Source: Siphlonurus alternatus (lineage: Eukaryota > Arthropoda > Insecta > Ephemeroptera > Siphlonuridae). From it: DNA of 64,000 bases. Below, in pieces: positions 3,628 through 58,094 of this stretch. Under the pieces are notes generated by a model that saw nothing but the letters and a program-made list of their open reading frames with translations, was not told where the DNA came from and made no database searches. Within the stretch, counting starts at the first letter, position 1. The number at the start of each line of letters is the position of its first letter. Location: the NCBI GenBank assembly GCA_949825025.1, contig OX463782.1:3297501-3361500 (forward strand), given 5' to 3'. A program made the position numbers and the translations under genes.

Positions 3628-4026
3628 TTGTTTAAATTGCCATCATATTATAATTTATATAATTATTTTACATGCATAAATAATTATCGGTTGAAGAATG
3701 AAGGCATAATATTTTAAACCATTACCATTGCAATATTATAGTGACAATTGCACTGCATGCCTGCATGATGTATGTAAACCTCTGGACACCATGAACTTTA
3801 CTCCTGCTTTGTTTGTAGACGTTACCACGCAGTCTATGGAGGTGTGGTGAACAAAAACTCTTTTGATATGGATTATGGATATACTGAGTCCAAATCTGCA
3901 TCTCTCTCTGCAGCTCTAACAAGTGAGGCAGTAGCAAAGTTCATATATTATTATAATCCATGTCCAAAGGTGTACGTGCTGTATAATATAAAATTTGAAT
4001 GCGTTTATATGGAACAAAAAAAATAT

Positions 4027-4920: not shown

Positions 4921-5277
4921 TTAAGGGTAAGGTAACGCCACACCAATGTTAAAAAAAATCCCTCTCACAAAAATTCTGAAAAAAATTTAAAATGTTCTCC
5001 TCTACACCCCCTATCAGTAGCTAAAATATCAGGTATACAAATACGATCTAGTTTTTGAGTTATGAATTTTTAAAGTTGACCAATTTAACATGGGAGTTTC
5101 ATTTCTCCATGTTAAAGTAGTCAACTTTAAAAATTTATAACTCAAAAACTAGATCGTATTTGTATACCTGATATTTTAGGTACTGATAGGGGGTATAGAG
5201 GAGAACATTTTAAATTTTTTTCAGAATTTTTGTGAGAGGGATTTTTTTTAACATTGGTGGCGTTACCTTACCCTTAA
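4921..5277. mobile_element. TTAA-flanked hairpin MITE, family A copy 1
   Basis: A 357-bp element bounded by TTAA on both sides. The left end TTAAGGGTAAGGTAACGCCA is mirrored by a right end reading tggcgttaccttacccttaa. The two ~170-bp arms are near-perfect inverted copies, so the whole unit folds into one hairpin. Copies sit at 10391, 38498 and 58095. A TTAA target duplication is typical of piggyBac and Kolobok elements; no transposase is present here. Confidence 0.85.
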
Positions 5278-6262
5278 AACAAAATAGAGAAATTTAGAAG
5301 AAGAAGGGGTGGGGGGGGGGGATGCAAAAATTTATGACAGGTGGTATATTTATAAATCAGCAGATTTCTGCTATAAAACTAAAGCATTTTGTTTTTATAA
5401 TATATTAAACAAACTCAAGCATTTTAAAACGCAAATGATTTATATATTATAGCTTTGAATTTTTGCGCATGAATATATATTATATATTACACACTTATTA
5501 ATTTCAATGAGCAAATGCTTTAGTTTAAAATTTTAAACTTAAATTTACAACCTTTTGTTTGTTATTCTCGTGTTATTAATTTGATGGATAGCATATTACA
5601 TTTTACGATAGGGACTAATGACGAGCGAATTAAAGGCAGATGATGATGTTTTTCAGGTAGTTATCCTTGAAAACTCCTCGGATCTCGCGGTTTCATGGTG
5701 GAAGTTCAAGGCTAGATAGAAAAAGATCCGGTAAGCCCGTGGGCTGTCTTGCATGATGGATCTCCAGAACCAAAAATAAATGTTATGTAAAAGGCAGCAG
5801 CAACCAGTTCAATCTTGCGTTCGGGTGTGGCTCTGTGCGATGACGAGATATCAAAACTCGTTTTTTTAAACCTGACAATATAATATGTACTTAGCTTTAT
5901 ATAGTATTGTGATACTGATATTTATATATAAATAAATTTTATAATATTCATTTATTTATATATTATTTACGCATTATGTTTTTTATAAATATAATACATA
6001 ATAAAAATAACAACAAAAAACAACATAGCATTTTATTAAAAAGATTTTTGTTTTCTCTGTTTTTTTGTTTTTTTAAAGAGATATTCTTTGTGTATATTAT
6101 ATTTATAGGGAGGAACTTTAAATTACAATAAATGTAAAAATAGAAATAAATTGCATATAGCGTAAGAATATTGATGACTTATTTATTATATAATGTTTAT
6201 AAATTAAAGATTTTTCAGTGTAGGCGATATATTATATACATAATACAGTATATTTATATATA

Positions 6263-7377
6263 CATATTATTAGTCTTTTATTAAACACAGAAAGTGTACA
6301 TATTAACAGCACTAGAAACATACATTATAGAAAAACATTACAATAGAACACATAAAACATACATACAAAACATATATAATAGTTACAGAATAATAGAACA
6401 ATAGAAAATGATAATAAAACAATATAAAATAAAATAACAGATGATACTAACAGCCTGTTACATCATAATAATAATATATCATATATATAATCACATATAT
6501 ATAAGACAAAATATGACATAGAAAATAGATAGAATAAAAAAACTTATTGCTTCATTGCTATTCAAAATCTATAGACTATATGAAATCTCCCCTGGCATAA
6601 TCGCTAATAGACTTAATTCTAGATTTACAAATATTTAAATGATATTGGCTACAATATTCATTACATAATTTACATACACAAGATTGTTCAGCTTTATGAT
6701 AACCAGAAGATTTACAAATTAGATGGTGGAAGCCGTGAACAGCCTGGCGAGTTAAAACATTTCTAACATTGGATCTATCCAATTGGGGCAGACACCAATA
6801 TTTACATGTCATAGCATCAGTGCTGTAAAACTCAGGATTAATATCCTGAGCTTTTTGATTCCTGACAGCTATAAAATTGGAATATTGATCTGTCGTTGGA
6901 AGTTTAAACATTTCTTTGATTTCTGTAATAAAATAATTGGAATCTATCAGTTTATAGGCCAGTCTAGTTTCGGTAAATTTTGACAGACACAGTAATCTTT
7001 TAACAAACATGGCTTTTACTGATTCTAATTTATCAAAATCGGATACAGATAAATGAGGCCATACAATTTCAATACCATAAGTAGCCACAGGGGCGACTTT
7101 TAAATTGAACAGTTTGAGCCCTGTTTTGACGGATAGACCAGACAGCCCTGAGATAGTGTACATAACAGTGATAGCGTTCTTACATCTTTCTGTTATATGT
7201 TTAGAAAAAGAAAGCCCTGTCATTTGAAGTATTATGCCAAGATATTTAAATGAATTTAGAAATTCAATCTTTTGACCGTCACAATAAATTTCATCGTTTT
7301 TGCATAAATACATATAATATACATACAATTTTGTTACTGCATAAAAGTTTGATATTGTCAATTTTTTCAGATGTTTT
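6263..7377 (-). mobile_element. 5'-truncated non-LTR retrotransposon, copy 1
   Basis: Read on the minus strand, this is the 3' end of a LINE-type element. An ORF of about 261 codons (stop at 6576) carries an FKYLGI motif typical of the end of the reverse transcriptase region, and near the C-terminus a zinc-knuckle-like Cys/His cluster of the form CX2CX7HX3C. It is followed by a ~310-bp 3' UTR ending in AATAAAAGACTAATAAT. The 5' side is cut off next to a (TTTA)n array. Two almost identical shorter copies share this 3' end (9604-10293 and 47965-48552). The exact clade (Jockey, R1 or CR1-like) is not decided. Confidence 0.85.
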
Positions 7378-9603: not shown

Positions 9604-10293
9604 TATAAACTGATAGATTCCAATTATTTTATTACAGAAATCAAAGAAATGTTTAAACTTCCAACGACAGATCAATATTCCAATTTTATAGCTGTCAGGA
9701 ATCAAAAAGCTCAGGATATTAATCCTGAGTTTTACAGCACTGATGCTATGACATGTAAATATTGGTGTCTGCCCCAATTGGATAGATCCAATGTTAGAAA
9801 TGTTTTAACTCGCCAGGCTGTTCACGGCTTCCACTATCTAATTTGTAAATCTTCTGGTTATCATAAAGCTGAACAATCTTGTGTATGTAAATTATGTAAT
9901 GAATATTGTAGCCAATATCATTTAAATATCTGTAAATCTAGAATTAAGTCTATTAGCGATTATGCCAGGGGAGATTTCATATAGTCTATAGATTTTGAAT
10001 AGCAATGAAGCAATAAGTTTTTTTTATTCTATCTATTTTCTATGTCATATTTTGTCTTATATATATGTGATTATATATATGATATATTATTATTATGATG
10101 TAACAGGCTGTTAGTATCATCTGTTATTTTATTTTATATTGTTTTATTATCATTTTCTATTGTTCTATTATTCTGTAACTATTATATATGTTTTGTATGT
10201 ATGTTTTATGTGTTCTATTGTAATGTTTTTCTATAATGTATGTTTCTAGTGCTGTTAATATGTACACTTTCTGTGTTTAATAAAAGACTAATA
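9604..10293 (+). mobile_element. 5'-truncated non-LTR retrotransposon, copy 2, with target duplication
   Basis: A 690-bp plus-strand copy of the same element as 6263-7377. It contains the last ~127 codons of the ORF (stop at 9984) with the CX2CX7HX3C cluster, plus the same 3' UTR ending AATAAAAGACTAATA. It is bracketed by a 13-bp direct repeat, ataatatagcatt, at 9591-9603 and 10294-10306, the target-site duplication left by target-primed integration. It is near-identical to copy 1 over the shared length, so insertion was recent. Confidence 0.9.
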
Positions 10294-10390
10294 ATAATAT
10301 AGCATTAATATAAAATTGTTATGTAAAATACATTCAGTTTAAAATTAATAACAATCTAGTTCAGAAAATGATAATAGTATCAGTTCATGT

Positions 10391-10804
10391 TACAAGATAA
10401 CACGCCCAATGTTAAAAAAATAATCCCACACATGAAAAAAATTTAAAATGTTCTCCTCTACATCCCCTATCAGTAGCTAAAATATCAGATGTACAAATTC
10501 CAGCCAGTTTTTTAGTTCTAAATGAATTTTTAAAGTTGATTACATTAACATGGAGAAATGGAACTTCCATGTTAAATTCAGAGCGAACTTGAGTAGCCTA
10601 CTCAAGTTCGCTCTGTTAAATTAGTCAACTTTAAAAATTCATAACTCAAAAACTAGCTCGAATTTGTGTACCTGATATTTTAGCTACTGATAGGGGATGT
10701 AGAGGAGAATATTTTAAATTTTTTTTTTCATAATTTTCTTGTGTGCGATTTTTTTTTTTTTTTTATATATATAACATTGGGCGTGTTACCTTCGATACCC
10801 TTAA
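10391..10804. mobile_element. TTAA-type hairpin MITE, family A copy (diverged)
   Basis: The arms read gataacacgcccaatg on the left and cattgggcgtgttacctt on the right, ending ...acccttaa. The inner arms match family A (tcagtagctaaaatatcag and its mirror). The left terminal TTAAGGG is lost. A short extra palindrome, 'gagcgaacttgagtagcc' and its mirror, sits at the apex. Confidence 0.75.
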
Positions 10805-12546: not shown

Positions 12547-15500
12547 TTAGTCGTTGTCTTTCCTCTTCCTCTTGCGGTAACTTGCCACGGAGGCTGCCGC
12601 GAGCTCTGATGAGCTCACCTTGCCGGCCAGCCAGTTCTCGAGCTCCGACCAGCGCTGCCGGCCGCCCGTCAGCAGCACCCTCTCTTCACGACTCAGCAGC
12701 CGCTCCCGAGTCTGCACGTCCACCGAGGGAGACGCCTGCGACAGACTGATGATCTCGCGACTGCGCAGCTGGAACGTCTGTCAACAAAACAAAAAACTAA
12801 ATAGATTAAAACATTCTGTTATGATTCTTGTCACACATTTAAAAAGTACAGAAAACAGAAACAAATTTAGGCAAAGCTTATACAATATTGCTTATTATTG
12901 ACCTCATGAACTCATGAAGCATCAAAAGATGGCATTGAAAACTTTCTTGATAGTATGACAACTACACTAAAGTAGTCAGTAGCAAAGCTCTGTTATCAAA
13001 ACAACACCACTTTTAGAATCACACAGGTAAAATAAAATCCACCAGTTGTCCATACCTGTCTTTATGAAGTGTTTTATTTGTTTAATGAAGTGTTAAAAGA
13101 CCCTATATTAGCCTACAGGTACAACTGTACATTAAAACATTAAGTATATTTTCAAACAGAGAATAACTACGATATTACAGTGAATGTTGTATACTATGGG
13201 GGCTAATGATGGAAGCTGAAGTGATCACACAAATTGTTAGAGGATTGTTTGTTGCTGTTATTCTTCTACGGTAACAATTAAATTTTTATGTGTAATTGTA
13301 AGCATCATCCATTTGTATGGCCTCTACAGTTTTCCAAACACCCTCACTACTCATTAATGAGTTAAGTTACTTAAGTACATACTACAGTATTGTCAGTTTT
13401 GAGAACACGTAAACATGTTCGCCAAGAAAACACATTTTTCACCGTTGAATCAAGCCTCAATGAGTTGCTACGATGTGGAAAGCTGACCATAAAGACTTCA
13501 AGTCAGCTGATTCTGTGGTGTTCCCTCCGTCCTATCCAAACCTATTTATTTAAAAAAAAAACAACTCAAAATTGCTTTTTTGGTATTGAAATATTTTATG
13601 GTAAAATATGTTCTTGATTCATTATCAGAAGATCCCTAAATGTCAGGGTAGGAGATGGTTCAAATTAATATCTTTAATATTTAGTGATTTTTTTTTTTTT
13701 TTAATTTTCTAACATGGTGGCTTATGGAGAAAATTTTCCTGCCAGGGAACACGTGAAACCTCTGCATATTGCAGGTCTGTATGACGTACCGATAGCAGGC
13801 AGGCTCGCAGTTCCTCCTCCTCTCCCCCAGTCACGACGGAGCACAGCAGGTGACCAAGCTCATAGAAGTACGCCTCTTGTTTAAGGAGATCAACCACCGC
13901 GGGTTCAGCTTTCAGGATCTCCCTGGGAGGCACAAAGAAATACACCTCAGTTATCAGGCATAATGGTGGAATTTGATGGATCTACAGTATTACAGATCTT
14001 AGTTTCGATTGCGTGTGGTGGCCATCTTGTACGTTATATAAACATTATATAAAAGCAGACATACGGCTAGACAGTCTGCTGGGAAAGGTACCAGTAATCT
14101 ATAAGATCTGTTATATTGTAAGAACTGCTTTACTTTACTGCTAAGTTCTTCTTGATTGTAGCATATTTAATTTATATAATGGAATACTTAAAATTATATT
14201 ACTGTACAGAAAAATTAGAAAACAAAAAATGAAATAGCAAATCAGAATAGAGTATTGACCTCAAAATTTTTTATTGCAGAAATGGATAGAGCGTGCAAAG
14301 TTATGCTACCCTGATTTTTTTCAGATTTTTTAGAACCCGGCAACTATTTTTAAAAATTTATTGAAATTTCTTTTTGTGACGTCACGCGGCGGCAAGTCCT
14401 ATCTTTTTCTTAAGGAGCGGCGTCTCGTGGTCACAAAAAGAACTTTCAATAAATTTTTAAAAATAGTTGCCGGGTTCTAAAAAATCTGAAAAAAATCAGG
14501 GTAGCATAACTTTGCACGCTCTATCCATTTCTGCAATAAAAAATTTTGAGGTCAATACTCTATTTGTTGCAGCAGATAATATATTGTGTATGTACATATA
14601 CATGATCAAAATATTGGTGCAATGGTATTTTTTCTTGGTGAAATTAGAGTCTATACAGGCAATATGCATGCAATCAATACTGGCATTGCTCAAGATTACT
14701 CTACATAAGGTTTGACGCTCCGCCATCTTGGCGCAGTTTTTGTTAGGGCCTGTGACGTCACGACCAATCACTGACTGCCACGAAATAGACTCGAGAGTGA
14801 CAGTTCTTTCTGATTGGTCCTGCGCGAACTGGACGAAAATGTGAACCTAAGAGTCCAACCTTATGTAGAGGGACTTTGGTTATCACTACCAAATATTTGG
14901 TGAAGTAGGCGACCAATAAAAATAATACAGCTCTCCATTGATGTTATTGTTATTGCTGCCATTGATTTATGAAACAACATATAGCAGCAGATCTGTTATT
15001 CTGATAACACAATATATCATACAGTTATATTATGAAGGTTACCTGGTACTCCTTGTGTAAGCTTTACAAAGCTCCGGAGTTATCAATTTCCGCTTTTTGA
15101 GTGTCATTGCCAGCCATGTCGGGAGCTCCAAACGTCGACCAGGTTCTAAATGAGGTGACTGGGTGCTTGGGTCAAGATCGCCTGTAATAAATAATACAAA
15201 AGTAAAGAACAAAAGTAATTAAGCAAATGATTGCTATCAATATTATGCATCATATCACAGCAGCCTCTTGCTCCATCAGCATACGGAGGTGGCTACAGTC
15301 CCTGTAACAGGGACTGCAATTCTAGAACATAGGCTCCCTGTATTGAAACTGCGCATGCGCGACTGAATGCATTTCCGGTACGTCATTTGTTGCATTGCAG
15401 GGACCGTAATTTTTGAAACTAGGATCCCTGTATTCAATTTTAATAATAGGCCAAGTATAATAAAAGTTACAGGGAGCCAAGTGTTCGATCAATGCGGTCC

Positions 15501-18500
15501 CTGTAGTGAACTTGTAAAACGTGTTGTCATGAAATAGATGCAGGGACTGTAATATCCCGAAGTTGCGGTCCCTGTAATCAAATTTTCTTAAAGAAACGCG
15601 GCAATACATACACACAGGGAGCGTAACATTCAAGTATTGCGGTCCCTGTAGTAAAAATTTCGTACTCTTATCTGGCCAAGTGTTATACAGGGACTCTAAC
15701 AACCAAAAGTTACGGTCCCTGCAGCAATTATTTCTTTATGGACGTAGCAATAGAAACTACAGGGAGCGTAAAATTCAATTAAGTATTGCGGTCCCTGCAG
15801 TGAAAATTTTGTACTTTTCTAGCAAAGTGTTATACAGGGACTCTAACAACCAAAAGTTGCGGTCCCTGCAGCAATTATTTCTTTATGGACGTGGCAATAG
15901 AAACTACAGGGAGCGCAACACTCAAGCATTGCGGTCCCTGTAGTAAAAATTTCGTACTCTTATCTGGCCAAGTGTTATACAGGGACTCTAACAACCAAAA
16001 GTTGCGGTCCCTGCAGCAATTATTTCTTTATGGACGCGGCAATAGAAACTACAGGGAGCGTAACACTCAAGTATTGCGGTCCCTGTAGTAAAAATTTCGT
16101 ACTCATCTTATCTGGCCAAGTGTTATACAGGGACTGTAACAACCAAAAGTTACGGTCCCTGCAGCAATTATTTCTTTATGGACGCGGCAATAGAAACTAC
16201 AGGGAGCGTAACATCTAAGTATTGCGGTCCCTGCAGTGAAAATTTCGTACTCTTATCTGGCCAAGTGTCATACAGGGACTCTAATAACCAAAAGTTACGG
16301 TCCCTGCAGCAATTATTTCTTTATGGACGTAGCAATAGAAACTACAGGGAGCGTAAAATTCAATTAAGTATTGCGGTCCCTGCAGTGAAAATTTTGTACT
16401 TTTCTAGCAAAGTGTTATACAGGGACTCTAACAACCAAAAGTTGCGGTCCCTGCAGCAATTATTTCTTTATGGACGTGGCAATAGAAACTACAGGGAGCG
16501 CAACACTCAAGTATTGCGGTCCCTGTAGTAAAAATTTCGTACTCTTATCTGGCCAAGTGTTATACAGGGACTCTAACAACCAAAAGTTGCGGTCCCTGCA
16601 GCAATTATTTCTTTATGGACGCGGCAATAGAAACTACAGGGAGCGTAACACTCAAGTATTGCGGTCCCTGTAGTAAAAATTTCGTACTCATCTTATCTGG
16701 CCAAGTGTTTATACAGGGACTGTAACAACCAAAAGTTACGGTCCCTGCAGCAATTATTTCTTTATGGACGCGGCAATAGAAACTACAGGGAGCGTAACAT
16801 CTAAGTATTGCGGTCCCTGCAGTGAAAATTTCGTACTCTTATCTGGCCAAGTGTCATACAGGGACTCTTACAACCAAAAGTTACGGTCTCTGCAGCAATT
16901 ATTTCTTTATGGACGCGGCAATAGAAACTACAGGGAGCGTAACATTCAAGTATTGCGGTCCCTGCAGTGAAAATTTAGTACTTTTCTAGCAAAGTAGTAT
17001 ACAGGGACTCTAACAACCAAAAGTTACGGTATAATAATGAAGGGTATAATTAGAGTCCCTGTATGGCACTTTGCTAGAAAAAGTATAAAATTTTCACTGC
17101 AGGAACCGCAATACTTGAATGTTACGCTCCCTGTAGTTTCTCTTGCCGCGTCCATAAAGAAATAATTGCTGCAGGGACCGTAACTTTTGGTTATTAGAGT
17201 CCCTGTATAACACTTGGCCAGATAAGAGTACGAAATTTTTACTACAGGGACCGCAATACTTGAGTGTTACGCTCCCTGTAGTTTCTCTTGCCGCGTTCAT
17301 AAAGAAATAATTGCTGCAGGGACCGTAACTTTTGGTTGTTAGAGTCCCTGTATAACACTTGGCCAGGGCCAGATAAGAGTACGAAATTTTCACTGCAGGG
17401 ACCGCAATACTTGAATGTTACGCTCCCTGTAGTTTCTATTGCCGCGTCATCCATAAAGAAATAATTGCTGCAGGGACCATAACTTTTGGTTGTTAGAGTC
17501 CCTGTATAACACTTGGCCAGATAAGAGTACGAAATTTTCACTGCAGGGACCGCAATACTTGAATGTTACGCTCCCTGTAGTTTCTATTGCCGCGTCCATA
17601 AAGAAATAATTATTGCTGCATGCAGGGACCGTAACTTTTGGTTGTTAGAGTCCCTGTATAACACTTGGCCAGATAAGAGTACGAAGTTTTCACTGCAGGG
17701 ACCGCAATACTTGAATGTTACGCTCCCTGTAGTTTCTATTGCCGCGTCCATAAAGAAATAATTGCTGCAGGGACCGTAACTTTTGGTTGTTAGAGTCCCT
17801 GTATAACACTTGGCCAGATAAGAGTACGAAATTTTCACTGCAGGGACCGCAATACTTGAATGTTACGCTCCCTGTAGTTTTTATTGCCGCGTCCATAAAG
17901 AAATAATTGCTGCAGGGACCGTAACTTTTGGTTGTTAGAGTCCCTGTATAACATGCACTTGGCCAGATAAGAGTACGAAATTTTTACTACAGGGACCGCA
18001 ATACTTGAATGTTACGCTCCCTGTGTGTATGTATTGCCGCGTTTCTTTAAGAAAATTTGATTACAGGGACCGCAACTTCGGGATATTACAGTCCCTGCAT
18101 CTATTTCATGACAACACGTTTTACAAGTTCACTACAGGGACCGCATTGATCGAACACTTGGCTCCCTGTAACTTTTATTATACTTGGCCTATTATTAAAA
18201 TTGACTACAGGGATCCTAGTTTCAAAAATTACGGTCCCTGCAATGCAACAAATGACGTACCGGAAATGCATTCAGTCGCGCATGCGCAGTTTCAATACAG
18301 GGAGCCTAAGTTCTAGAATTGCGGTCCCTGTTACAGGGACTGTAGCCACCTCCATCAGCATACGCCGGAAATAATTTTTTTCTATGTAGGATACGTATTT
18401 GATACACGTGCAAACATTATGCATATAAGGCTCATTTTATAGGTCTTGTATCTTTAAATTATTACAATAGTCTTAAATTAGGCTATGAAGTTGACCAAAA

Positions 18501-19662: not shown

Positions 19663-19971
19663 GAGCCGCCCATGGTTATAGCCGCCAGTGACCGGCCAGT
19701 CTGCAGGTCAGGGTGTCAGGGTCGATCAAAGGGCCCGCGTTGTCTGACAAAACACAAAAATAGTGTATACGCACTCATCATGGTATATACACTCCTCGCC
19801 TCTGAAAAAGTTCTCTTCTGCAGCCTTGTAGGGAACTTTTCAGAGAGATGATATAATTATAATTAAAATATATAACTTTTTCACATAATTTATATATTGT
19901 ATTATTTTTTTTACAAAAAAAATATACATTAATTCTTTTTTTTATCATGCCTATAATTAATTATATAAATG

Positions 19972-20181
19972 ATATCGTCCCTCATCCGCAATAATGAGCT
20001 ATCTGCTCCACGATCTCGTTGCAATAATTGAGCTGTCTGCTATTTCAGATGAACGCAATATTGAGCTATAAATCGGTATAAAATAAGGCTCAAAATTGCG
20101 CTCATCTGAAAGAGCAGACAGCTCATTATTGCAATGAAATCTTGGAGCAGATAGCTGATTATTGCGGAAGAGGGACGATAT
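19972..20181. mobile_element. Hairpin MITE, GTCCCTC...AATAATGAGCTATC family
   Basis: Termini atatcgtccctc and gagggacgatat are inverted. The arms share gcaataatgagctatctgct and its mirror. Related copies are at 12292, 35688 and 40215. It is non-coding. Confidence 0.8.
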
Positions 20182-21089
20182 ATTTACGAGTTTAACTAAA
20201 CAAATAAATATCCAAACTTTTTTTTTTTTTTAATTACAGTCAGCTTACTTTAGAAATAAATTTAAAAATCAAACATAATAATTAAGTGATGCTGATGTTT
20301 GTTATTAAAAGAAGCTTCACATTTTTTGTAAATTAACAAGTAAAAAGAATTATTTTTTTTTTCTTAACAAAAAATCCCTAAACAAAGCTTTAATTATATT
20401 TAAAGTAGAAATATAATAAAGTTATATAGTAAATTAATAATTTAAATAATATATAATCAGGTCAATTTATTCTAAATGTAGCTAAAAAGAAATAAAATGC
20501 AGTGTTCAATTGTAGACATAATATGGAATATATTTCAAAAAAGGCAAGTTAATTATATATGCATCAACTTCACAAAAATAATGTAGAAAAATTGTATACA
20601 GTATCATTTAATAAATTCATTCACGAATTTATAACAATAAAAAATAAATTGAGATTATGATTCGATAATAAGGCACTTGTAAAAATTGGCACTTTCAAAA
20701 TTCAAAACAAGGAATGTAAACTTAAAATGAATGATATTGAGCAAATTATGCAGGACTGGCAGTATAGTATAGGAAAATTTCATAATGGCATCTGAATCTC
20801 TGAAATACAATCTTCTAAAATATTAAACAATGAAGCCATCAGGAGTTTTAATTTACACCATTATGTTTTACCTACATACATCACTATATTATATTCATGG
20901 CATTAATGCTAATATATGAAGAAATTTTCTTATAAACTGGCAGTAAATACCGAAATCAACTTGTTCAACTGTCGTTTTAGCATAAATTTGTAAGAATTAT
21001 TTCTTATAGTAGGATTGGTGTTCTGATGACTTCTAGGAAACATTTAAGGACGAAATGCATCTCTTGACTTTGCGGCGGTGGATTTGATT

Positions 21090-24000: not shown

Positions 24001-27000
24001 GTATGATATCAAAATCAAGGAACTTTAAGTTTCCATCCTTGTTCTAATCAAGACTTTTACAAATACACACTTTGATAAAGAGCAAAATATTGTACCTGCT
24101 CGGGACTGAGTGGCACGGCAACGGCTGCTCCTGCCGGGCTGACGTGTTTGAAGGAAGTCGCTGCCGGTAAGGAGAGAGCCGTGTCGAGCTCTCGCACCAG
24201 TTGCCAGGCGTTGAGGGCATCACAAAGGTTGATGTAGCCAGGAGAGCCGTTCACCACTGTGACGAACAATTTGATATCAACCCATAATAGAATAAATTTA
24301 TGTTGATTATTTTATTACAGAGCAGTTTCATAGAAAAGGCAAAGCAATGTTGATTATTTCATTCTTGTATCAGTAGGCGAAGAGTTTAAAGATGTTCCCT
24401 CTTAATTTATTCCTAAGAAAAATGATTCATTGAGGAAATATCCACAACCAGTTATTGGAACCAGTGCGTCTACACGAGTCTATTGAATTAGCTATAGAAC
24501 CTTCTACGATCACTCTTTATATTATACTTATTATAGAATGTAGTAAAAGTGTGAAAATATTCAAAGTAAAACCATGCTACAGCCCATCAATGTATCAAGT
24601 AATACAAAAACCAGAATGCATGTTTCAGAAAACACAAAGATCATAATAAAATGACATTCAAGTCCCTGCATTTTTATACAGCACATATTTTGTGGATTAA
24701 AATTTTAAAACATAGAAAGTAACTACTTATTAATTTGAAAAATAATAAACCCCTCTTAAAAATGACACTCTTAGAATAAAATATTCAAATTAAGGAAAAT
24801 AAACCATTTAGGTTGTGATAATCTTATTAAAAGAAAAGGATAGGAATAACCAGCAAGGCCTTACCGATCGAAAGAGTCACAGCAGGTGGAAATTCTTGCG
24901 GTCACAGAGGTTCACTCGAAAGTTTTTACATTTTTGAAACGTTTCGCATCGTGGAGATGCTTCTTTAGTCACAAGAAGAAGTAGAATCTTAGAATAAAAT
25001 AAGATATAAACGCACCTGTAAGAGGAAGCTTGGGTCCTGTGGTGAAGAGCTGGGCTGGTTTCTGGTGGGGATTCATGCCATAACGCAGCGTGATCTGAGC
25101 CTTTCCCTCTGCTGAGAACTGCTGCTTTCGGAAGAAATCAGACACTGCTAAGTCGTACTCTGCAGTGTGGGTGAAGGCCTTCAATGCCAGAGAGCGCCTG
25201 TGGACAAAAAATATGTTATGAGGTTGCTAATAACATTGAAATGACGTGCTTATATTGTAATATACACTCAAAAATCAATAAATAAATATGAAATATGATG
25301 AGAGAATGATGAGAGAGAATAATTAGTGTTAACATTATTTTGAAACAAAGGAAATGAAATTTTGGAAATTTTAATTTTGATCAGTACTGTATAACAAAAA
25401 TATGCTCTAATCAAAAATTACAAAAACAGAACATTTTTTGGCATAAAATATGTTGTGATTATACCCCATCCCCTCAAGTGTAAGTGAATTCAGATGGAAT
25501 TAACTATCTATACACTACACTGATCCTAACTGTACAGGCAGCACAGCTGCCACAGCATACATCATTAAAGAACAGTCCTATATGTAAGAGTTTTGCATGA
25601 GAAGTTGACAACAAATCTTACTTAGTGGCTCACTAGAAACACAAGCAAGAGTATTGTTGGGAGCAAAGTTTCTTTTTACAGGCAATACTCAAACCAAGAA
25701 GTTTATGTGTAATTCATGGAATTTGGGAGGACTTATTAAATAGCAAAATTAAAATAAAAAATAGCATTGCAAAAGTGGGCGAATGAAATCTTGCAGTTTA
25801 ATTGACCTTTTTTTTTATTGATTTTTTTTAAAAGTAGATAGAAACACATATGATAGAAAAAGATTTGTTGGGATGAGAGATAGTTCCAGCTTTTAGCCGT
25901 CAGTGACCCAGCAAAAAGAGAAAAATTAATTAAAACAACGCTATGTGTGTATATTAGGTTTGACTCACCGCTCGTTTTAGAGAGAGAGAGGGATTTTTTT
26001 AGCTTGATCAGCTAGTTTTTGCTAGCAAAATCGTCACACAAATAATACATTTGGTGCGCCACTCTCTAGCCATGGACAGCTGTTTCGGCCTACTGGGCCT
26101 CATCAGCATGGCGAGGAGAGAGAGGCAGCAGCTCCCAGCCAGGTCTACATGAGAGCAAGACTATCGAGCTACTGCCAAAGTAGCAGAGTTCGTGCGGCCT
26201 TTTATACCGGCGATCCGAGTCTCGCAATTATAGCGCGACTCTTCATTGGCTGCTACTTTGTGGGCGCCAAAAGTTTAAATATGTAACGCTATCGCTGCAA
26301 AAACCATTGACAAGCCAGGGATTTGAAATAAAAGGTAGAGATAGTGGGATTTGATAGAGGGTAAAAGATGGACAACACAGGAGAAGGAAAAGGAAGAGAA
26401 AATCGAACTAGCGATATTAATTAATTATTTGAAAAAAATCGAACTAAGCGATATTTATTTTTTTTAAAAGTAGATAGAAACAAATAAAAAAAAATAAAAA
26501 AAAATAAATATCGCTTAGTTCGATTTTTTTCAAATAATTAATTAATATCGCTAATTCGATTTTCTCTTCCTTTTCCTTTTCCTTCTCCTGTGTTGTCCAT
26601 CTTTTACCCTCTATCAAATCCCACTATCTCTACCTTTTATTTCAAATCCCTGGCTTGTCAATGGTTTTTGCAGCGATAGCGTTACATATTTAAACTTTTG
26701 GCGCCCACAAAGTAGCAGCCAATGAAGAGTCGCGCCATAATTGCGAGACTCGGATCACCGGTATAAAAGGCCGCGCGAACTCTGCTACTTTGGCAGTAGC
26801 TCGATAGTCTTGCTCTCATGTAGACCTGGCTGGGAGCTGCTGCCTCTCTCTCCTCGCCATGCTGATGAGGCCCAGTAGGCCGAAACAGCTGTCCATGGCT
26901 AGAGAGTGGCGCACCAAATGTATTATTTGTGTGACGATTTTGCTAGCAAAAACTAGCTGATCAAGCCAAAAAAAACCCCTCTCTCTCTCTACTCTCTAAA

Positions 27001-30000
27001 ACGAGCGGCGAGTCAAACCTAATAGACACGCATAGCGTTGTTTTAATTAATTTTTCTCTTTTTGCTGGGTCACTGACGGCTAAAAGCTCGAACTATCTCC
27101 CTTCCCAAAAAATCTTTTTCTATCATATGCGTTTCTATCTACTTTTAAAAAAAATAAATATCGCTTAGTTCGATTTTTTTCAAATAATTAATTTTTTTTT
27201 TATTGATGGACTTTTTGTACCATGGTTAGTTACCAATGGCGGAACATGTTTTCAACATTGTTCACAGTGCTCTCTGGGGCTCCTAATACCCAGTCTGTAC
27301 CATGAAGTTAGTGAATTTGAAATCTTTGGATATGATTGGCTAGCTGTTTAACATTGGCAAGACATAACCTGCATGACCTTGGGGAGAAGACCTCACCTGG
27401 TCTCCAGGGAAGTGTCCTTGCTGGCCTGTTTGTCCATCTCATCTGCGATGGCCTCGTAGTCGCTGGAGTCACACACCACGGTGACGCGGTCGTGGTTCTT
27501 GGCGGCCGCTCGTAGCAGAGTCACTCCACCTGAATACAACAAGTTGGGTATCAAGTCGTAACAACAAGAATACAGTAGACATCCATATAGCCTGATATTA
27601 GAGGGGGGAAAAAATTATACATGTATAAAACTAGCTTATTTAACACAATGGTGTAATTTTATTACTTTAATATCTACTTTTGTAGTTAGCTTATATATTG
27701 ATATATTGTATACTTATGCAACTTTTGTTTAGTTGCCCTTACTTTATTTTGGGTGTAGAACTTAGTACGGGCCTTGCCTTTTTTTACATCCCCTTGGGCA
27801 GTTTTTCCTTTGTTGACTATGACATATTTGTAATTTGTCTGTTTTCTGCTCAATAAAACATTTATTATTATTATTTGAAATGGCTGTTTTAGCATTAATT
27901 TACAGCAAAGTATTAGAGAAAATAAGTTCTTTATTACCCTTAAGTAAAGGAACAGGTGATACTTTCAAAATTTATAACTTTTATACTTGAGGCCTTTTCA
28001 AAATTGTGTAAACATTTAATTTATTAAGGTATTATAAGATAACTAGACATTTCTTTAAAAAAATATTAAAAATCATACTCTTTCTGAATGGCAAACAACT
28101 CAATTATTGAGTAAATAAAAGAAAATATATCAAATTTGATGGCTTTTTTTAGACAGTATTTTCTCACCATGGAACACTGAAATCCTCTATTTTTGCAACA
28201 ACATCACACAATGCTGACCTATATCAATGTTCTCCACAGCATCTGCGATTGTGACTCCCTCCTTAGCCACCGTCTCTGCGAAGGGGTAGAGGTTGCACGC
28301 CACGAGGCGCACCATGTCGATCTTGTTACGGGCAAGATCCGCCAGATCAGCAGGGGTGTTGCGGCCAAGAATTCCTGCGAGAAGACGGAAAATATTATAA
28401 TATAGTCTTAAAATTATTGTTGAAAGGTGTATTGGTAAAAGGAAAGATATAGGAAAATACCAACAAGCTTTACCACATTGAAATGTCCATTGTGAAGAGA
28501 GATTACAGGTACAGTACACAAATATATTTCGAGAATGATCTCTTGTAATTGATAAAGACCACATCATTAAATGATGGTCGTCTCAATAATGTATTTGTAA
28601 ATGTAAATATATTTGTGTTATCTGTGCTACCAAGTTTCTCCTCACTACGGATGTTTCATCGTGGTATGAATTTTTGGTATTTACCTATCTCTTTCTTTTT
28701 ACCAGTCTTAAAAATTATTGAAGTTTTGTTTCACTATAGATTTTGCTTATTTTTATGCATTTGTATTATTTGTAAAAAATAGCACAGAAGAAACATTGCT
28801 AGTTTATATTTATTGAGTAATTTTTAAGATAATTAAAAGCACAGTATGATGAAATAAGGAAAATTCAAATAATGGTGTCTACAGTAATTACATAAAGTCA
28901 AGGGACCCAGAAAATTAGGTTTAACTTACATCACGTTTTTCCTATACCTGCAATGCTAATTATTTTCGACGACCACGATCTCCTTTACTCAAAATCGAGT
29001 TTTAACTAACTACAAGTTGTGTAGTAAAGAGTGTTTTCTGTTTAAAGGAAGTAAGAAAATAAAGTAAAAGTTTACATGTCATTTTCAAAATGAGCAAGAC
29101 ATTAGCAGTGTACTGAAGATTTTACTTAGGTTATCAATTATTGCCCCTCTTACCTCCATGAACGGCAGGGTGCAGAGTTTTCACACGCCCCCCTAACATC
29201 TCCGGAGCGCCTGTGATGGTCGCTACCTCCGTCACGGCAAGCCCGGCAGCCTGTAGTTCCTTGGCGGTGCCACCAGAGGCCACCAGTCTCAGACCCAGAG
29301 CCTGCAGACGAGTGGCGAATGCCACAAGCCCCTTCTTGTCTGAGACACTCAGAATAGCTATGGAGATATCACAATGTTAATTTACTACAAGGTCTGAAAA
29401 TGATCAACAAGAGTTTGAAATTAAGATTTTAGCTGAAAATTTTCAATGTGGAAGATGAAAGTATAGGTAACAAGAAGTCCAATATACAGTAGAACAGGAG
29501 AAATTATAATAGGCACGGCAAATTTAACATATAATGCTCAACAATGGACAACCTTTCTCAGTTATCTACTGTATTTATTATTATTATTATTATTTTTTTT
29601 TCAGATTTTTTGAACCCTCAAAATTGAGAGGAAAGACACTGCGACGTCATAGTCATGCAACATCTTTCCCTATGCTTGCAAGTTAAATATTTGCATGACT
29701 ATGACATCACAGCGTTTTGTAGCATGATTTTAAGGATGTTAGAAAGTTATATTGAAAAATATTGACAATACATACAGCAATCAACTCTTGGTCTTTTATC
29801 CAAACGTGCAGCAAAAAAATTTCATGAAGGTTGTACATAATTGAGCAAATTTTAGCCTTCATTGCTCCAATAAAATAATAATTTTACTATACAGTGTAAT
29901 TTTGGTTTGCTAGCAAATTTACATCATTTTGAGCCACTTTTAATATATTTTAGGGATATAATGCTCATTAATTTTAGAAAATTAAAATAATTTTCAGGAC

Positions 30001-31235: not shown

Positions 31236-31408
31236 CAGTATAACAGATCTTAGTTTACCTCTAGACAGTTCAGTAGACTAGACGGCGCCAGCTATATCAG
31301 CCAATGAAAAGGCGGCCAGCAGTCATTCTAGCCTTTTCATTGGCTTATATAGCTGGCGCCGTCTAGTCTACTGAACTGTCGAGAGGTAAACTAAGATCTG
31401 TTATACTG
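31236..31408. mobile_element. 173-bp near-perfect palindrome
   Basis: The arms run from CAGTATAACAGATCTTAG inward through gacggcgccagctatat to a CCAAT-containing agccaatgaaaagg, and the whole arm is mirrored on the right. The apex is only about 20 bp. The termini resemble the repeat at 13984-14119, so it is probably a MITE. It sits in the ATIC/F-box intergenic region. Confidence 0.75.
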
Positions 31409-37297: not shown

Positions 37298-38497
37298 AAT
37301 TGTGTGTGTTGTTTAGTAAACTTAAATAATTCCTACCGGTTCAATGCCAGTCTGAACTTAGGGAGAGGGTATGTGTTCCACTTTTTAAAGGAGATTTTTA
37401 ACTACAATGACTAGTATAGAATTGTTTTCTAATCTCAATTAAAAACAAATTCATTTTTCTAAATCAGATTGAACAAAAAATTTCATGCAGTTGAGATAAT
37501 ACTGTAATGGAATGTATTTCTTTTGTGTGAACTTAAAAGATCAAATATACAGTGTGCTTCTCTGAAGCCTGCCCTAATACAGAATATGCAAGATAGAGGG
37601 TTCAATTGTTGATCGCCAATTTTTTCTATTTTTTTCCTCATAACCCACATTATTAGAAAATTTAATTTTTTTTTCTCACCATTTTAATTTGAAAATAATT
37701 CTTATTCCCTCATTTAAGGGTCTTCATCTTATTTTGAATCAAGAACTTGTTTTCTTCTAAAAAATTTGCTATAATTAATGCCAATAAGGGAAGTTTTAAG
37801 GAATGTTTTTACATTGATTTTGACAGGAACAGCATGAGCAACAGATGTGCAAATAACAAATATCTTGTCAGAGTTATGGTGTTTTGGGATCTGTTAACGA
37901 AATAACTTACGAAAGTATGATTTTATGTATTTAAAACAAAAAGCCTGCTTTTCATATTACAAGAATTTATTTATTTCATATTGTTTCATTTTTTTGTTGT
38001 TATTTTTATCTGATAAAATAAAGTTTAAACAATCTCAATATTTAATATCATGAACCAGGCAAATCATGTTGTTAAGTTTGTGTGTGCTATGATGAAAATT
38101 AAAACGCCTTGGATCAATATATTAGCCAGTTTGATTTTGATTGAATTTCCTTGTTTTTCTGAAACTATAGATGTAAATACTTGATTGTTTGGAGTTTAAT
38201 GTAAACTTAAATGACTACAAAAATTAAAAACATTGTATAAATATGTAATATATATTTTATTTGTTTGTAAATATAATAAAGATATACAATTACTCCTAAA
38301 AAATATCAGTGCATTTTATTATATACCGTAACATGGTTTATATCTCATCAGTAATCCTGCAAGTAAAAACAAATATTTGTAAAAATACCAGTGCAAATAG
38401 AAAGCTTTTTAAAAATGATTATAAATAAAATACATATTATTATAGATAACCTAGTGGTAAATAATATTTTAAACAAGAAATTGGTAATGACATTACC
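37298..38497. other. 3' UTR and flank of the F-box gene
   Basis: AT-rich, with no further ORF of note. AATAAA at 38017-38022 and at 38275-38280 are the two best poly(A) signals. Confidence 0.5.
38017..38022 (+). terminator. Candidate poly(A) signal of the F-box gene
   Basis: AATAAA about 720 bp after the stop codon. A second AATAAA at 38275 is an alternative. Confidence 0.4.
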
Positions 38498-38870
38498 TTA
38501 AGGGTAAGGTAACACGCCCAATGTTTAAAAAAAAAAAAAAAAAAAATCCCACACATAAAAATTATGAAAATTTTTTAAAATATTCTCCTCTGCAACCCCT
38601 ATCAGTGGCTAAAATATCAGGTATGCAAATACGATCTAGTTTTTAAGTTATGAATTTTTAAAGTTGACTAATTTAACATGGAGAAATCAAACTTCCATGT
38701 TAAATTAGTCAACTTTAAAAATTCATAACTTAAAAGCTAGATCGTATTTGTATACCTGATATTTTAGCCACTGATAGGGGTTGCAGAGGAGAATATTTCA
38801 AATTTTTTTCATAATTTTTATTTTTATTTATTTATTTTTTTTAACATTGGGCGTGTTACCTTCCCCTTAA
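38498..38870. mobile_element. TTAA-flanked hairpin MITE, family A copy
   Basis: TTAAGGGTAAGGTAACACGC on the left and a gcgtgttaccttccccttaa block on the right. The arms match family A (gatctagtttttaagttatg and its mirror). Its right TTAA is also the left TTAA of the next element. Confidence 0.85.
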
Positions 38871-39258
38871 GGGTAAGATAACACAAAACATTGATTGTTG
38901 TAGTCCCATTTGATTAACATGTAAACCTTAGCAACCTCACAATAATTCTGATTTTTTTTTGAGAGACAGTTCTTAACACCGAAAAAATGTAGAAAAAATT
39001 TCAAAACAATCAGACGATCCAATTTTTTTAAATTAATTGTTTAAATTTTCAGTATAAGGCTTTCCCATGGAGACCCAAACTAAGAAATTATTTTTAAAAA
39101 ATTGGATCGTCCGATTGTTTTGAAAATTTTTCCACATTTTTTTTGGTGCTAAGACCTGTCTCTCAAAAAAAGTTCAGAATTATTATGAGGTTGCTAAGGT
39201 TTACATGTTAATCAAATGGGACTACAACAATCAATGTTTCCTGTTATCTTACCCTTAA
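38867..39258. mobile_element. TTAA-flanked hairpin MITE, family B copy 1
   Basis: TTAAGGGTAAGATAACACAA on the left and a tgttatcttacccttaa block on the right. The inner arms (aacatgtaaaccttagcaac and its mirror) differ from family A. A second copy is at 54835-55227. It shares TTAA at 38867-38870 with the neighbouring family A element. Confidence 0.85.
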
Positions 39259-43500: not shown

Positions 43501-46500
43501 TGAGGCCTGTATGCCTTTAAAGAAGGTGAGCCAAATGAAAGACTATTTTCTTTGTGTGCATAAGCAATATTAAAAATTCACATCAATAAATAAACAAAAA
43601 GATGAACAGTTAAGAAGAATCGATCAATCAAGAAACAACAGGGGTTGATAAATGTCAATTAAGGAAGAGTTAAACAGATAACAAATAGTGCGAGAGCCCA
43701 AACCAATTGATTTAAATTTCTTTGAGACTTACGGTCCAGCCCCTGAGCCAGGGTGAGCCACTCCCTGCCGAGGTCCCTGGTGCTCAGCTGTTTGGTAGCG
43801 GGGGCGAGCTCCACCAACAGACGTCTCAGACCGGCCAGCTCTCCCTGGCGAGCTCGCAGCTCCTCCCCAAGCTCAGACAGTTGAGAGTTGTACGAGGCAA
43901 GCACGTCGTGCACCCTGAAACATTTAATACAAAACATTTAGCAGGTGCTAGTGTAGTCTTACAGAAATAAATTTACTTTTTTCCATAAGATCTTTCCAGT
44001 GCTTCAAGTTAATACAGAAATTAATCTCATTTTAGTGTAGCAAATGGAAACAGTGAAAAAAATTCTCAAAACTCACAGTACAGTACAAAGGTTTTGGGAG
44101 AAATAGAAAAAAGAAAGCAGTCACTAAAAAAATAATGTAGATATTGAAAATTGAAGTAAACATGGGTTCTTCAGTGAACAAAATTTTTAGTGTTGTCTTT
44201 GACAAAATTTTTACCATAAATTTTTGGTTAGAATTGTTTTAACTTTTACTAAACATGCATTTACTGTGTTTTCTGTTTTTTTTTTTTTTTTTTTTTTTTT
44301 CTTTCTTATCTTCTTTCAGAAACTTTCTAATGTAATGTTGCCCTAAATGTCTTAACTTGTTGCTTAGCACAAAGGGAGGTATGTGTGGAGGAAATCTACA
44401 GTACTGACCAGGAGCAAGCAGCAAAATCAACCTACAATAATCACTTTTATGTCACAGGTAAATAAAAAGAGTTGCATGTGTCGATCATCATGCATTCATT
44501 TTTCTTTGCAATTCATCTTTGACATAAAGGCATGCATTTTGAGCTACTTTACAGAATGCTCCTAGTTGGGCTGAACTACGCAAACACTGAATAATGAAAA
44601 CTTTTTAATGAAAATTATTTTCTTATACTACTTAACATTTATTTTTGAAAAAAACAACACACTGGTAATTCAGGGATAACAAACATATAATTATTTTGAT
44701 ATCCTTACTTGAGGAGCGCCTGTGCTCTTCCCTCGAGGGCATGGGTGATTTGCAGACTCTGCTCCCTCAAAGCCTCAACCTCTGCCGCCTCTCTGCCCAG
44801 CAGTTGCGACAGTCCATGTGTCGCCCTGCCTGCCAGCCTAGCTGACGTGGACACCAGCTCCGCCTGTCGCTTGGCCCCGTATGCGACACTGCAGCAACTC
44901 TTGGACACTGTCGCATCCGTCTCAAGAGACACTGGCATCGGGAACGACGGGAACTTGGGAACCTGAGAGTCAGTGCGGTGATTTGTAGAGGTGGCTAATG
45001 TGAGTCAAGAAAATCCCATGTCTTTTGAAATAGGATGTTTTTTTTTTTTAATTAGCACAAATAAAAACTTATTGGAAATTGAAGGAACAAAATATCTACG
45101 TACTTTATTATTCAGTCTGATGGAATTATTTAAGTATTGTAAGAAATATTATATAAAGTGAAATACTGTAGAAAATTGTAAAACCGGAGACTAGTTCCCA
45201 AGACTTTTTTCCTGCAAAATCTTGAAAATCTTGAAATGTAAATTAATGGCAAGTACTGTAATATGAAGCAATGTTTTGGCTTTGTTTTCTCATCAGACGA
45301 AGAGAAATAGAAACAGAACGGAGAATAACTTAATACAATATTTAAAATTTCTTTTAGTTTCAAAGGAAATTGTAAGCAAAATTATATTATACAATTCCAG
45401 CATTAAGCCTATATTACACGATACAATTTTTCTGATTATTGTATACAATTTTTTCTTGCAAGAAAATTTTCTCTCAATACAAACAAATGGAGATTAAATT
45501 TTCTTGTAAGGAAAAATTGTATACAATAATCAGAAAAATTGTATCGTGTAATATAGGCTTTAGATAAAATTGTCATCTAATAAAGAGTGCTCCACAACAA
45601 CATTTTCAGAAAATTTTACTGCTACTTTTGACGATTGTAAAGCCGGTATTACACGATACAATTTTTCTAACTATTGAATACATTTTTTCCTTACAAGAAA
45701 ACTTGAACTCCATTTGTTTGTATGGAGATGAAATTTTCTTGTAAGGAAAAATTGTATGCAATAATCAGAAAAATTGCATGGTGTAATATCGGCTTTAGAC
45801 TCAATGTCAGTCTTAACCCACCTCCCCTGTGTTGAGCAAGGTGACATTGTTGTTCTCTCTGTGGAAGAGGACAAGGGGCTGCAGCTGAGAGGTCTTGGGC
45901 AGCTCAGACACGAGCTGGTCCTCCATCATCAGGATTTGGTGCTTGGCGGCCACCCCGGTCTGCTCTGCAATGTCTGCACACACATCCTCCAGGCTCGATT
46001 CCTGCAAACAATAGCGTGACATAAGAGCAGAATTTGATACTCTTTGAGAACAAATCAAGCTTTGTTACCGACGGTAAGTTATAAAGCAGCATCATTTTTT
46101 GAAACCGAAGTTTCTATTTAGTTTGAGATATGAGATATGTTAATTTAAGTCAAAGCAAAATTGATATTTCAGAATGAAGTATCAATTTTTATTGGAAAAA
46201 TGGTTAAAGTTAAGCTACTCTGAATTCTTTTTCCAGCTTTTTTAGAGCTCAAGAACTATTTTTAAAAATATTGAAAGTAAAGATAGAGGTATCAATAGAA
46301 GTCACTTCTTAATAAAAAGGATAAGACTTAAAGGAGCCCGGTGAATTCAAACCTGAACTTTGAATAACATTTCAGCAATTCTTCCTGGTCTCTAAAAAAT
46401 TTGAAAAATCAGAATGGCATAACTTTGAAACCTTTATTCATTTCTGCAATAACAAATTTTGAGGTCAATGTTCTATTTAATACTCCTATCAAAGATCAAC

Positions 46501-48550
46501 GAACCTTTGATGGAGGGTAGATTCTGAGCAGCTGGCAAGTATGAGCGTGCCACACCCACACGAGGGCCTGCTTGGCCTTACTGACTCCCGTGACGGCAGA
46601 GAAGAACTGCTCGAAGCTCCAGATGCGAGCGGGCTCCGTCTCAAGCAGTCCGGCCAGCAGTGGCGTGACCAGAGAGCGTAGGCCGCGACTCAGCTGACAC
46701 GAGGCGGGCAGCTCTCGCGACCAAGTGATGGGGGCATCCTCAGCACTCTGGCAACACAATAGGAACAGAGGCATGTAGGTTCATCTGAATGGAAAACCTG
46801 CATGGAATTTTTTCATTGCATTTTTGGATAGAGGACTTTAAAGGTGAACTGAAGGGATTGCTTTTTTTTCCCATTAGGAAACCTTATATTACCTATCCCA
46901 TCCATCTGCACTAATTTTTTCATGGCAGATACTTATTGTGCTGTTGTAGGACAATTAGTGAAAAAGTGAAGTTGTGACGTATTAGCGACGGTTGGTTGAC
47001 TTAAAACTCGCCGCCGTGAAAAAACACACGAGCGACCGCGGAAACTGCCGAGAGAGTGGTGATCGCGAGCCGATCGCCGCTCCCTCGGCAGTTTCCGCGG
47101 TCGCTCGCGGTCGCTCGTGTGTTTTTTCACGGCGGCGAGTTTTAAGTCAACCAACCGTCGCTAATACGTCACAACTTCACTTTTTCACTAATTGTCCTAC
47201 AGCAGCACAATAAGTATCTGCCATGAAAAAATTAGTGCAGATGGATGGGATAGGTAATATAAGGAAAAAAAAGCAATCCCTTCAGTTCACCTTTAAGTTA
47301 GGTACATACCAGTATTATTATTATTATTTGTCAGATGTTTTTGAACTTTCTTACACAATTTAAATCTTGCTGCAAAGTGCCATGATGTCATAACCATACA
47401 AATACCTCTAACATGCAAGCAAAGGAAAAGTCTTAACGTGACAGCATTTTATAGCACAATTTTGAATGTGTTAAAGGTTTAAAATAATTAATAACATAAT
47501 GTATACATAACTTAATATCCTCTATCCAAAATATGTAATAAAAATGTTGCACAGGTTGCCCATTGAATTTAGTACTGTATAGGGCAAAATTCAATGATAA
47601 TGGATTTTGTTAATCTCATTCCATTTCATATTTCATACCTTCTAAAATACATAAAAAAAAAACTACATTTCTCCTCATTATATGCCACTTTAGAGAAGAT
47701 ACTCAATTTTTGTTTTACTAAGAAATGATTCTATCACACTGATAACTAATGGTGTAGGTTTGATTCATATGCTGCAGTACAGAAAAAAGGGTGGGGAAAA
47801 GTTTTATTTTGGAAGGTACAATACAGTGTAAAAATAAAAAATAATTCTAAATTCACAAAAGATGAGTTTTCAAATATTACCTAGCTCATCTATGAAATAC
47901 ATATTTCAATGAAGAAACAGCTAGTACAGCTACTGACAGCTACTGTGGTGTGTATATTTATTATTAGTCTTTTATTAAACACAGAAAGTGTACATATTAA
48001 CAGCACTAGAAACATACATTATAGAAAAACATTACAATAGAACACATAAAACATACATACAAAACATATATAATAGTTACAGAATAATAGAACAATAGAA
48101 AATGATAATAAAACAATATAAAATAAAATAACAGATGATACTAACAGCCTGTTACATCATAATAATAATATATCATATATATAATCACATATATAAGACA
48201 AAATATGACATAGAAAATAGATAGAATAAAAAAAACTTATTGCTTCATTGCTATTCAAAATCTATAGACTATATGAAATCTCCCCTGGCATAATCGCTAA
48301 TAGACTTAATTCTAGATTTACAGATATTTAAATGATATTGGCTACAATATTCATTACATAATTTACATACACAAGATTGTTCAGCTTTATGATAACCAGA
48401 AGATTTACAAATTAGATAGTGGAAGCCGTGAACAGCCTGGCGAGTTAAAACATTTCTAACATTGGATCTATCCAATTGGGGCAGACACCAATATTTACAT
48501 GTCATAGCATCAGTGCTGTAAAACTCAGGATTAATATCCTGAGCTTTTTG

Positions 48551-48616
<66 letters not shown>

Positions 48617-57735: not shown

Positions 57736-58094
57736 ATTGCTTTTATAAAGAGAAAAATCATACACTAAATGATAGAAAATTTGTTGATAAAACTATGAGC
57801 TAAATGACAGCTGTCTCATATTTTTTTATGACGTATATAATTTTAATCTACCTGATAAGAAAAAGAAAAAAAAAAGCTAGTACAGCTATAAGCTTGCAGC
57901 CAAGCAAGTTCTAATCTACTGATAAGACTCTCTACTTCCTGCATATGATCCTTTTTGGTATAAGAGAAAAAAAAATACTATCAACGTTTTGGTATTACGG
58001 ACTGTATTTTTTTCAAAGTGTAAAAATATATTTACAAATATTCCCAAATAAAAACTTGTTTGTTTGTTTATTTTAAATAAAACTTGAGCACAGT

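Follow-up and report, generated by a model that had tools for sequence, protein, structure and literature searches.

The stretch of DNA analysed here (64,000 nucleotides of the mayfly Siphlonurus alternatus, contig OX463782.1, positions 3,297,501 to 3,361,500; the window) contains, within an intron of ATIC, a 1.37-kb palindrome with a hammerhead ribozyme in each arm, and the question it raises is what kind of element brings together two opposed ribozyme units and how they came to lie head to head. Comparison of the locus with its relatives in the same genome suggests, at a probability of about 0.7, that the palindrome arose by a single insertion of a hammerhead retroelement, a large 'retrozyme' that bears a promoter but is not autonomous, and that machinery of the type used by Penelope-like elements (PLEs) moved it. 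Given that the unit has no open reading frame for a reverse transcriptase (RT) or endonuclease, it is filed as a PLE-type insertion only and not as a PLE. The family bears on two questions: which autonomous element moves animal retrozymes, for which PLEs are named a strong candidate in one report (PMC7229834) and no motif is said to reveal the partner in another (PMC7761336), and how PLEs make head-to-head copies. As a low-divergence, multi-copy family with clean target-site duplications (TSDs) and a strict rule for its outer ends, it offers a natural record of insertion events in which a promoter-bearing ribozyme unit would have been the template.

The palindrome (window positions 25816-27192) is made of arms that are 98% complementary over 412 nt (25990-26401 and 26567-26978), an outer pair 95% complementary over 169 nt (25816-25984 and 26992-27160) and an inner 87-nt pair. 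An earlier note on this DNA gave 25816-27192 as the extent of the feature; this is correct for the palindrome, but the insert, as delimited by a flanking 15-bp direct repeat, runs from 25823 to 27192. The repeat, TTTTTTTTTATTGAT, lies at 25808-25822 and 27193-27207, with ends ambiguous by a few nucleotides in a T run, and none of 2843 other window pairs at equal spacing reaches 13 bp. Among pairs of T-run sites, however, 76/1374 reach at least 14 bp; the repeat of the window copy alone is for this reason only good evidence, and it is the family comparison that settles the matter. The right arm is a plus-strand unit of 650 bp and 42% GC (26497-27146), its length given by the spacing of a 47-nt start block that recurs at 27147-27193, 650 bp further on; the first ~46 nt of this next unit (27147-27192, plus strand) form a 'tail' that is present at the right end only. 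The left arm is a minus-strand unit (25830-26465) whose outer end stops at the unit end without a tail and whose inner end continues across a head-to-tail junction into the last 16 nt of a preceding unit (26466-26481, minus strand), and between the arms is an A-rich joint (26482-26496; Tandem Repeats Finder, period 10 over 26474-26508). The combination of inverted and tandem units reported in the earlier note is therefore real, as the start-block copy does follow the right arm.

A search of the animal's own 456-Mb genome returned at least 223 matches, the best 40 of 581 candidates having been scored; the query is palindromic, so each unit matches about twice. Forty copies were compared, the window copy and 39 other places among the matches listed, which, being the best-scoring, are a biased selection, and segments or arms under 28 nt are missed in this comparison. 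The unit is about 640 bp in the other copies. Of the 40 copies 29 have a head-to-head arrangement, in which each outer end is the 3' side of a unit, and in all 29 exactly one outer end carries a tail (left in 12, right in 17). The tail is ~45 bp and ends at unit position 34-61, and at 45-51 in 22/29; the tail-less end is at about 650, again in 22/29. Under independent coin flips one tail in 29/29 would have a probability of 2e-9, although copies L047 and L048 share flanks and so represent one event, leaving 28 independent head-to-head events. TSDs of at least 12 bp flank 30/40 copies (12-17 bp, mode 14; end-swapped control 78/1560). With the tail arm set to the right, the base after the TSD is G in 17 of the 24 head-to-head copies with a clear duplication (P about 1e-8) and the base before it is C in 11 of these 24 (P 0.002), both P values being corrected for maximal-match bias, as if a single nicking activity had cut each strand just ahead of a G, with ~14 bp between the nicks. 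ATT or AAT occurs in 21 of the 24.

The architecture of PLE insertions was thus found in three respects: inverted plus direct units (29/40), a one-sided tail (29/29) and a TSD at AT-rich sites (30/40). PLE inserts are described as having frequent head-to-head inverted pseudo-long terminal repeats (pLTRs), a ~30-40-bp tail on one inverted pLTR, a TATA box with an initiator and a TSD of 8-10 bp (PMC3846280). The PLEs with pLTRs (Penelope/Poseidon clade; Adineta vaga Pen2a; Anolis PAc) resemble the window element in the inverted and tandem unit, the tail on one inverted unit, the TSD, the TATA box with initiator, the hammerhead overlapping an ATG and the AT-rich target (PMC3846280, PMC11167929). 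They differ in having an ORF for RT and endonuclease, which the window element lacks; the rotifer pLTRs are 193-218 bp, as against a unit of ~640 bp, and the window hammerhead retains helix III bases, which sets it apart from the minimal form reported for PLEs (PMC7761336). A purified PLE protein is reported to cleave and extend both target strands, with a preference for AT-rich ATT, and its RT to start at two adjacent internal sites, the interval between them being the tail (PMC11167929).

These observations suggest the following series of events. A multimeric or circular RNA containing the unit would be made, from which unit-length RNA would be freed by the ribozyme working as a dimer, and a PLE RT/endonuclease would bind the multimeric or circular RNA. 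The two target strands would be nicked ~14 bp apart, one target 3' end priming cDNA at RT start site A (unit ~46) and the other at site B (unit ~650) of the same RNA, and the two cDNAs would stop at variable points and have their 3' ends joined, giving head-to-head arms and a target duplication. A predicted 8-bp stem (27088-27095 with 27169-27176) pairs the tail with a segment that precedes the unit end and encloses site B. It is tentatively proposed, at slightly less than even odds, that coordinated two-strand priming is a property of PLE enzymes in general: with one circular or multimeric ribozyme RNA as template, each nicked strand would use a different one of two neighbouring RT start sites. 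Inverted pLTRs and one-sided tails would then have a common explanation throughout the PLEs, whose non-autonomous partners the animal retrozymes would be. Searches of an open-access literature collection listed no title or abstract opening on retrozymes arranged head to head or on a rule of one tail per insertion, which is no proof of their absence from print.

Sharing of one RNA by both arms can be compared with the divergence between units. The pooled difference is 0.74% between the opposite arms of a copy, with a median of 0.43% (40 non-independent pairs from 20 copies), 0.49% between tandem units within one arm (31 pairs) and 1.21% between units of different copies (3531 pairs), which suggests that on the whole the arms of one insertion come from one source. 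In the window copy 11/528 compared sites differ between the arms, and outside the microsatellite there are 14 substitutions, of which eight involve an allele absent from the other copies compared, five an allele found in one to three units and one a gap-prone site; later mutation is therefore the likely cause here. That two different RNAs templated the two arms, a reading prompted by the 14 differences, is weakened by these private and rare alleles and by arms being closer than copies, less so for five of the 20 copies. The arm differences concentrate in the outer third (26967-27130, compared with the left arm; 10/170 versus 4/464 sites, P 5e-4), and the longest stretch of identity between the arms, 191 nt, falls short of significance given 14 substitutions (P 0.09). 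Arms of at least 690 nt (25/58; the longest 2217 nt) cross head-to-tail junctions and uncut ribozyme sites, and given that many arms do so the template would have been circular, multimeric or at least uncut.

The two ribozymes that the earlier note had proposed are real motifs, an identical 44 nt in each arm: one at 26856-26899 (plus strand, predicted cut 26893|26894) and the other at 26069-26112 (minus strand, predicted cut 26075|26074). Both have the type I core CUGANGA...GAAA...UH with three helices. The suggested check against Rfam was made: in a search of 1.6 kb with lax filters each arm matches Hammerhead_1 (RF00163) at 32.1 bits (E 1.1e-5), but this is 1.9 below the Rfam gathering score of 34 and whole-window scans, at gathering and at E up to 0.5, list neither. 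A strict scan for the core with stems I and II finds only these two hammerheads in 64 kb, and any match in 1/100 first-order Markov shuffles. The same 44 nt are present in 60/70 family units, with a difference rate of 0.36% versus 3.8% for the unit; a special sparing of the ribozyme was considered and dropped, as 12% of 44-nt windows are equally low and constraint on the ribozyme alone is unsupported.

Further support for the fold comes from a diverged second ribozyme family, L062-L065 on contig C11, which scores 33.3-39.3 bits, three of the four (L062-L064, 34.0-39.3) being above gathering. Relative to the window family these show compensatory changes at three pairs in helices I and II, and across the five hammerhead sequences there are three both-sided pair changes, a number reached in 3/500 shuffles (slid controls 0-1). 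Paired cells amount to 86.3%, with some pairs broken in L062-L065; the core and stem III are kept in L062-L064, not in L065. The compensatory changes thus support helices I and II, with the limit that all three set the window family apart from the remaining four sequences, themselves members of a single family. L063 also holds a further copy of the window's unit, ~2.9 kb away.

Stem III is the weak element of this ribozyme. It is composed of A-U plus one C-G pair, the six bases CAGCUG between GAAA and UC giving that C-G pair beneath a palindromic AGCU tetraloop. In the fold of a 65-nt monomer the probability of stem III is 0.0 and the minimum free energy (MFE) structure is a different fold. 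For two copies (RNAcofold) the MFE structure is a double hammerhead with an 8-bp ACAGCUGU stem III, at -52.7 versus 2 x -24.4 kcal/mol, although its stem III has an ensemble probability of only 0.23-0.27. An axolotl motif with the same form of stem III is reported to cleave 6% in an hour as a monomer and much better as a dimer (PMC7229834). Two or more same-sense exact hammerheads are present in 9/40 loci. Transcripts from each arm of the window copy carry one ribozyme and no second downstream, and with a single ribozyme per transcript the window copy looks like a dead end.

Each ribozyme is preceded, 94 bp upstream, by the TATA box TATAAAAG, in agreement with the earlier claim of one per arm (26762-26769, plus strand, in the right arm; 26199-26206, minus strand, in the left). 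The 12-mer around it, GGTATAAAAGGC, is found in 62 of the 65 family units covering the site, and GCCAATGA, which precedes TATAAAAG (26762) upstream of the ribozyme, is kept in 60/60. Downstream lie an initiator-like GCAGT (26793-26797, plus strand; 66/66 units covering the site), at whose A (26795) transcription is predicted to begin, ~99 nt upstream of the cut at 26893|26894, and AGACC (26822-26826, plus strand; 68/69), like a downstream promoter element, at +28; the last two motifs were judged against arthropod consensuses. A 33-codon open frame (26859-26960, plus strand; also in the left arm) has its first ATGs in hammerhead stem I and core, and the frame enclosing it has no Pfam match. In an Anolis PLE the hammerhead overlaps the start codon (PMC11167929). 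By eye, the inner ends of the copies compared do not pile up at unit 397, the cut site, or at unit 299, the predicted start.

Given that the unit is non-coding, its enzyme would have to be encoded elsewhere. A first PLE motif pattern had no matches in the genome; a PLE RT motif pattern found 42 places, versus four with a reversed control, including head-to-tail arrays with a ~2910-bp period on contigs C1 (six places; C1:419624-434191) and C9 (nine; C9:2382973-2406277), and inverted neighbours. In one array period, L066, an open frame of 852 aa matches RVT_1 (E 2.3e-15), and its C-terminus looks GIY-YIG-like by eye; most of the relatives listed for this frame carry RVT_1, PF26215 and PF28514, and GIY-YIG PF01541 is in 6 of the 120 listed. 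L067 is a diverged second PLE. PLE-type RT machinery is thus present in the genome. A genome search with PF01541 gave two matches, one on a 17-kb contig with bacterial-looking frames and the other interrupted by a stop and lacking any obvious PLE frame in its surroundings, and was uninformative, as the L066 frame itself has no match to PF01541. The former locus (L029, contig C85), with frames bacterial-looking by eye, is possibly contamination or a symbiont. Of the Penelope link that the earlier note proposed to seek by genome search, a multi-copy family with Penelope insertion marks and Penelope-type RT frames in the genome were found, but none adjoining the unit.

Several observations weigh against PLE-type mobilisation as set out above. 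With regard to the enzyme, the five long frames of the insert have no Pfam match and include no RT, as the earlier note had said; no PLE-type frame was seen by eye among frames of at least 110 aa in the 3-kb flanks of L009-L028, LINE-like (long interspersed nuclear element) RT frames being seen by eye in the flanks of some copies instead (e.g. L021, L028); neither L066 nor L067 contains an Rfam hammerhead or resembles the unit in sequence, and the missing PF01541 match of the L066 frame belongs here too. With regard to the ends, the tail-less end is internal, not at 650, in 7/29 head-to-head copies, and of the 11/40 single-orientation copies three have a tail and eight do not. With regard to the target, TSDs are hardly more AT-rich than their flanks (82% versus 79%, 24 copies), and their mode of 14 exceeds the 8-10 bp of rotifer PLEs. 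With regard to the template, arms are more than 2% apart in 5/20 copies (the window copy, L015, L031, L038 and L049), where a shared template is unsupported, and linear multimeric RNA fits the arm data as well as circular RNA. Finally, the in vitro PLE study reports that RT start sites did not differ between the strands and that mutating the ribozyme left insertion unaffected (PMC11167929).

The inner ends lie at most 56 nt apart in 13/29 copies (P 5.5e-4 versus uniform), a further point on this side, as self-priming could also yield it. In self-priming, or snap-back, the cDNA 3' end folds back and copies itself into the second arm; this agrees with arms that are mostly near-identical within an insertion as well as with the nearly coinciding inner ends, and self-priming on an antisense template is inferred for the head-to-head palindromes of rotifer Penelope (PMC3846280). 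However, as the origin of the family it is unlikely, for two reasons: first, faithful copying repeats the outer end, so that zero or two tails are expected, not one tail in 29/29. Second, arm lengths are often very unequal and neither class is always the longer, the tail arm being so in 15/29. The near-coincident inner ends may stem from a common 5' end of the RNA, or from a minority of copies having been self-primed.

It is also possible that the partner of the unit is a LINE, the unit being a LINE-driven element of the short interspersed (SINE-like) kind: an APE-type (apurinic endonuclease) LINE would insert the ribozyme RNA and L1-style twin priming would make the inversion. RT candidates are abundant (4483 at first look, of which 150 were scored, with PLEs not separable by this RVT_1 search), the LINE-like frames in the flanks of some copies fit, and the TSD length fits LINEs. 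Nevertheless this origin is unlikely. APE-type LINEs prefer TTTT|A, whereas the target edges of the family are symmetrical and cut before G. The tail signature, moreover, is described as unique to PLEs (PMC11167929).

The insert lies between two minus-strand exons, upstream at 27399-27533 and downstream at 25014-25202, that match solved ATIC at residues 126-170 and 170-231, which bears out the strand assigned to the gene in the earlier note. That note further supposed that the left-arm ribozyme, being in ATIC sense, could cut the intron, and one might regard the locus as an intronic ribozyme that cuts ATIC pre-mRNA and so regulates the gene. This is very improbable given the folding: when the insert's sense transcript (1400 nt) is folded, every one of the 44 bases of the sense ribozyme is paired with the antisense copy in the other arm, stem III is absent from the monomer fold, and the insert is one of many dispersed copies. 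The ATIC sense stretch holds one sense ribozyme and thus no partner in cis; on these models self-cleavage inside ATIC RNA is unlikely, while effects of double-stranded RNA on the ATIC intron are possible.

An origin as a Foldback-type or miniature inverted-repeat transposable element (MITE)-type DNA transposon, to which the window's 12 further palindromic repeats (173-459 bp) might point, is also very improbable: identical inverted ends abutting a short TSD were not found, the outer ends being unequal, with a one-sided tail, in 29/29 head-to-head copies, the arms variable in length, the units tandem and the TSD mode 14. Palindromes are a known class of assembly artefact, but a fold-back read is barely credible given the TSD, the 14 arm substitutions outside the microsatellite, eight with an allele absent elsewhere in the copies compared, and 28 further head-to-head copies with varied breakpoints.

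Among known ribozyme repeats, the PLE-type insertion favoured here resembles the metazoan non-LTR (long terminal repeat) retrozymes of coral, mussel and axolotl, which are also non-coding, with a type I hammerhead, head-to-tail units, a TSD and GC under 50%, and the axolotl type shares the weak helix III and palindromic tetraloop (PMC7229834). They differ in their reported length of 170-400 nt, the window unit of 650 bp being outside a range of about 150-450 bp, and in that retrozymes 'seem' to be without promoters (PMC7761336), whereas a promoter-like block is conserved in the window family. The accounts of retrozymes compared describe neither head-to-head insertions nor a one-tail rule. Schistosome Sm-alpha and W-elements (PMC8490949) and newt satellite 2 (PMC7229834) likewise have type I hammerheads in dispersed or satellite repeats, but no head-to-head or tail architecture is seen in their descriptions. 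Terminons, giant rotifer PLEs, have hammerheads in a PLE context; they are telomeric and coding, whereas the window element is intronic and non-coding (PMC6431247).

Other repeats of the window are of different kinds. A LINE-like C-terminal frame, recognised by eye and with no Pfam match, is present in three repeat copies, one of them inverted (6249-6956, 9604-10312 and 47953-48553). The region abounds in repeats that can form hairpins, and Rfam microRNA matches over the window palindromes were rejected, as they are below gathering and reflect hairpins. Palindromic repeats at 4921-5277, 58094-58450, 38493-39258, 46838-47296 and 54835-55227 are MITE-like, with TTAA- or TTA-type ends, the first two being 99% alike, and further palindromic repeats lie at 3309-3629, 14246-14564, 45405-45795, 19966-20186, 31236-31408 and 10435-10725. 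Finally, a 3.07-kb inverted repeat at 15285-18353, whose arms contain arrays of a 145-bp tandem repeat and whose flanks share ~10-11 bp, is reminiscent of Foldback-type DNA elements.

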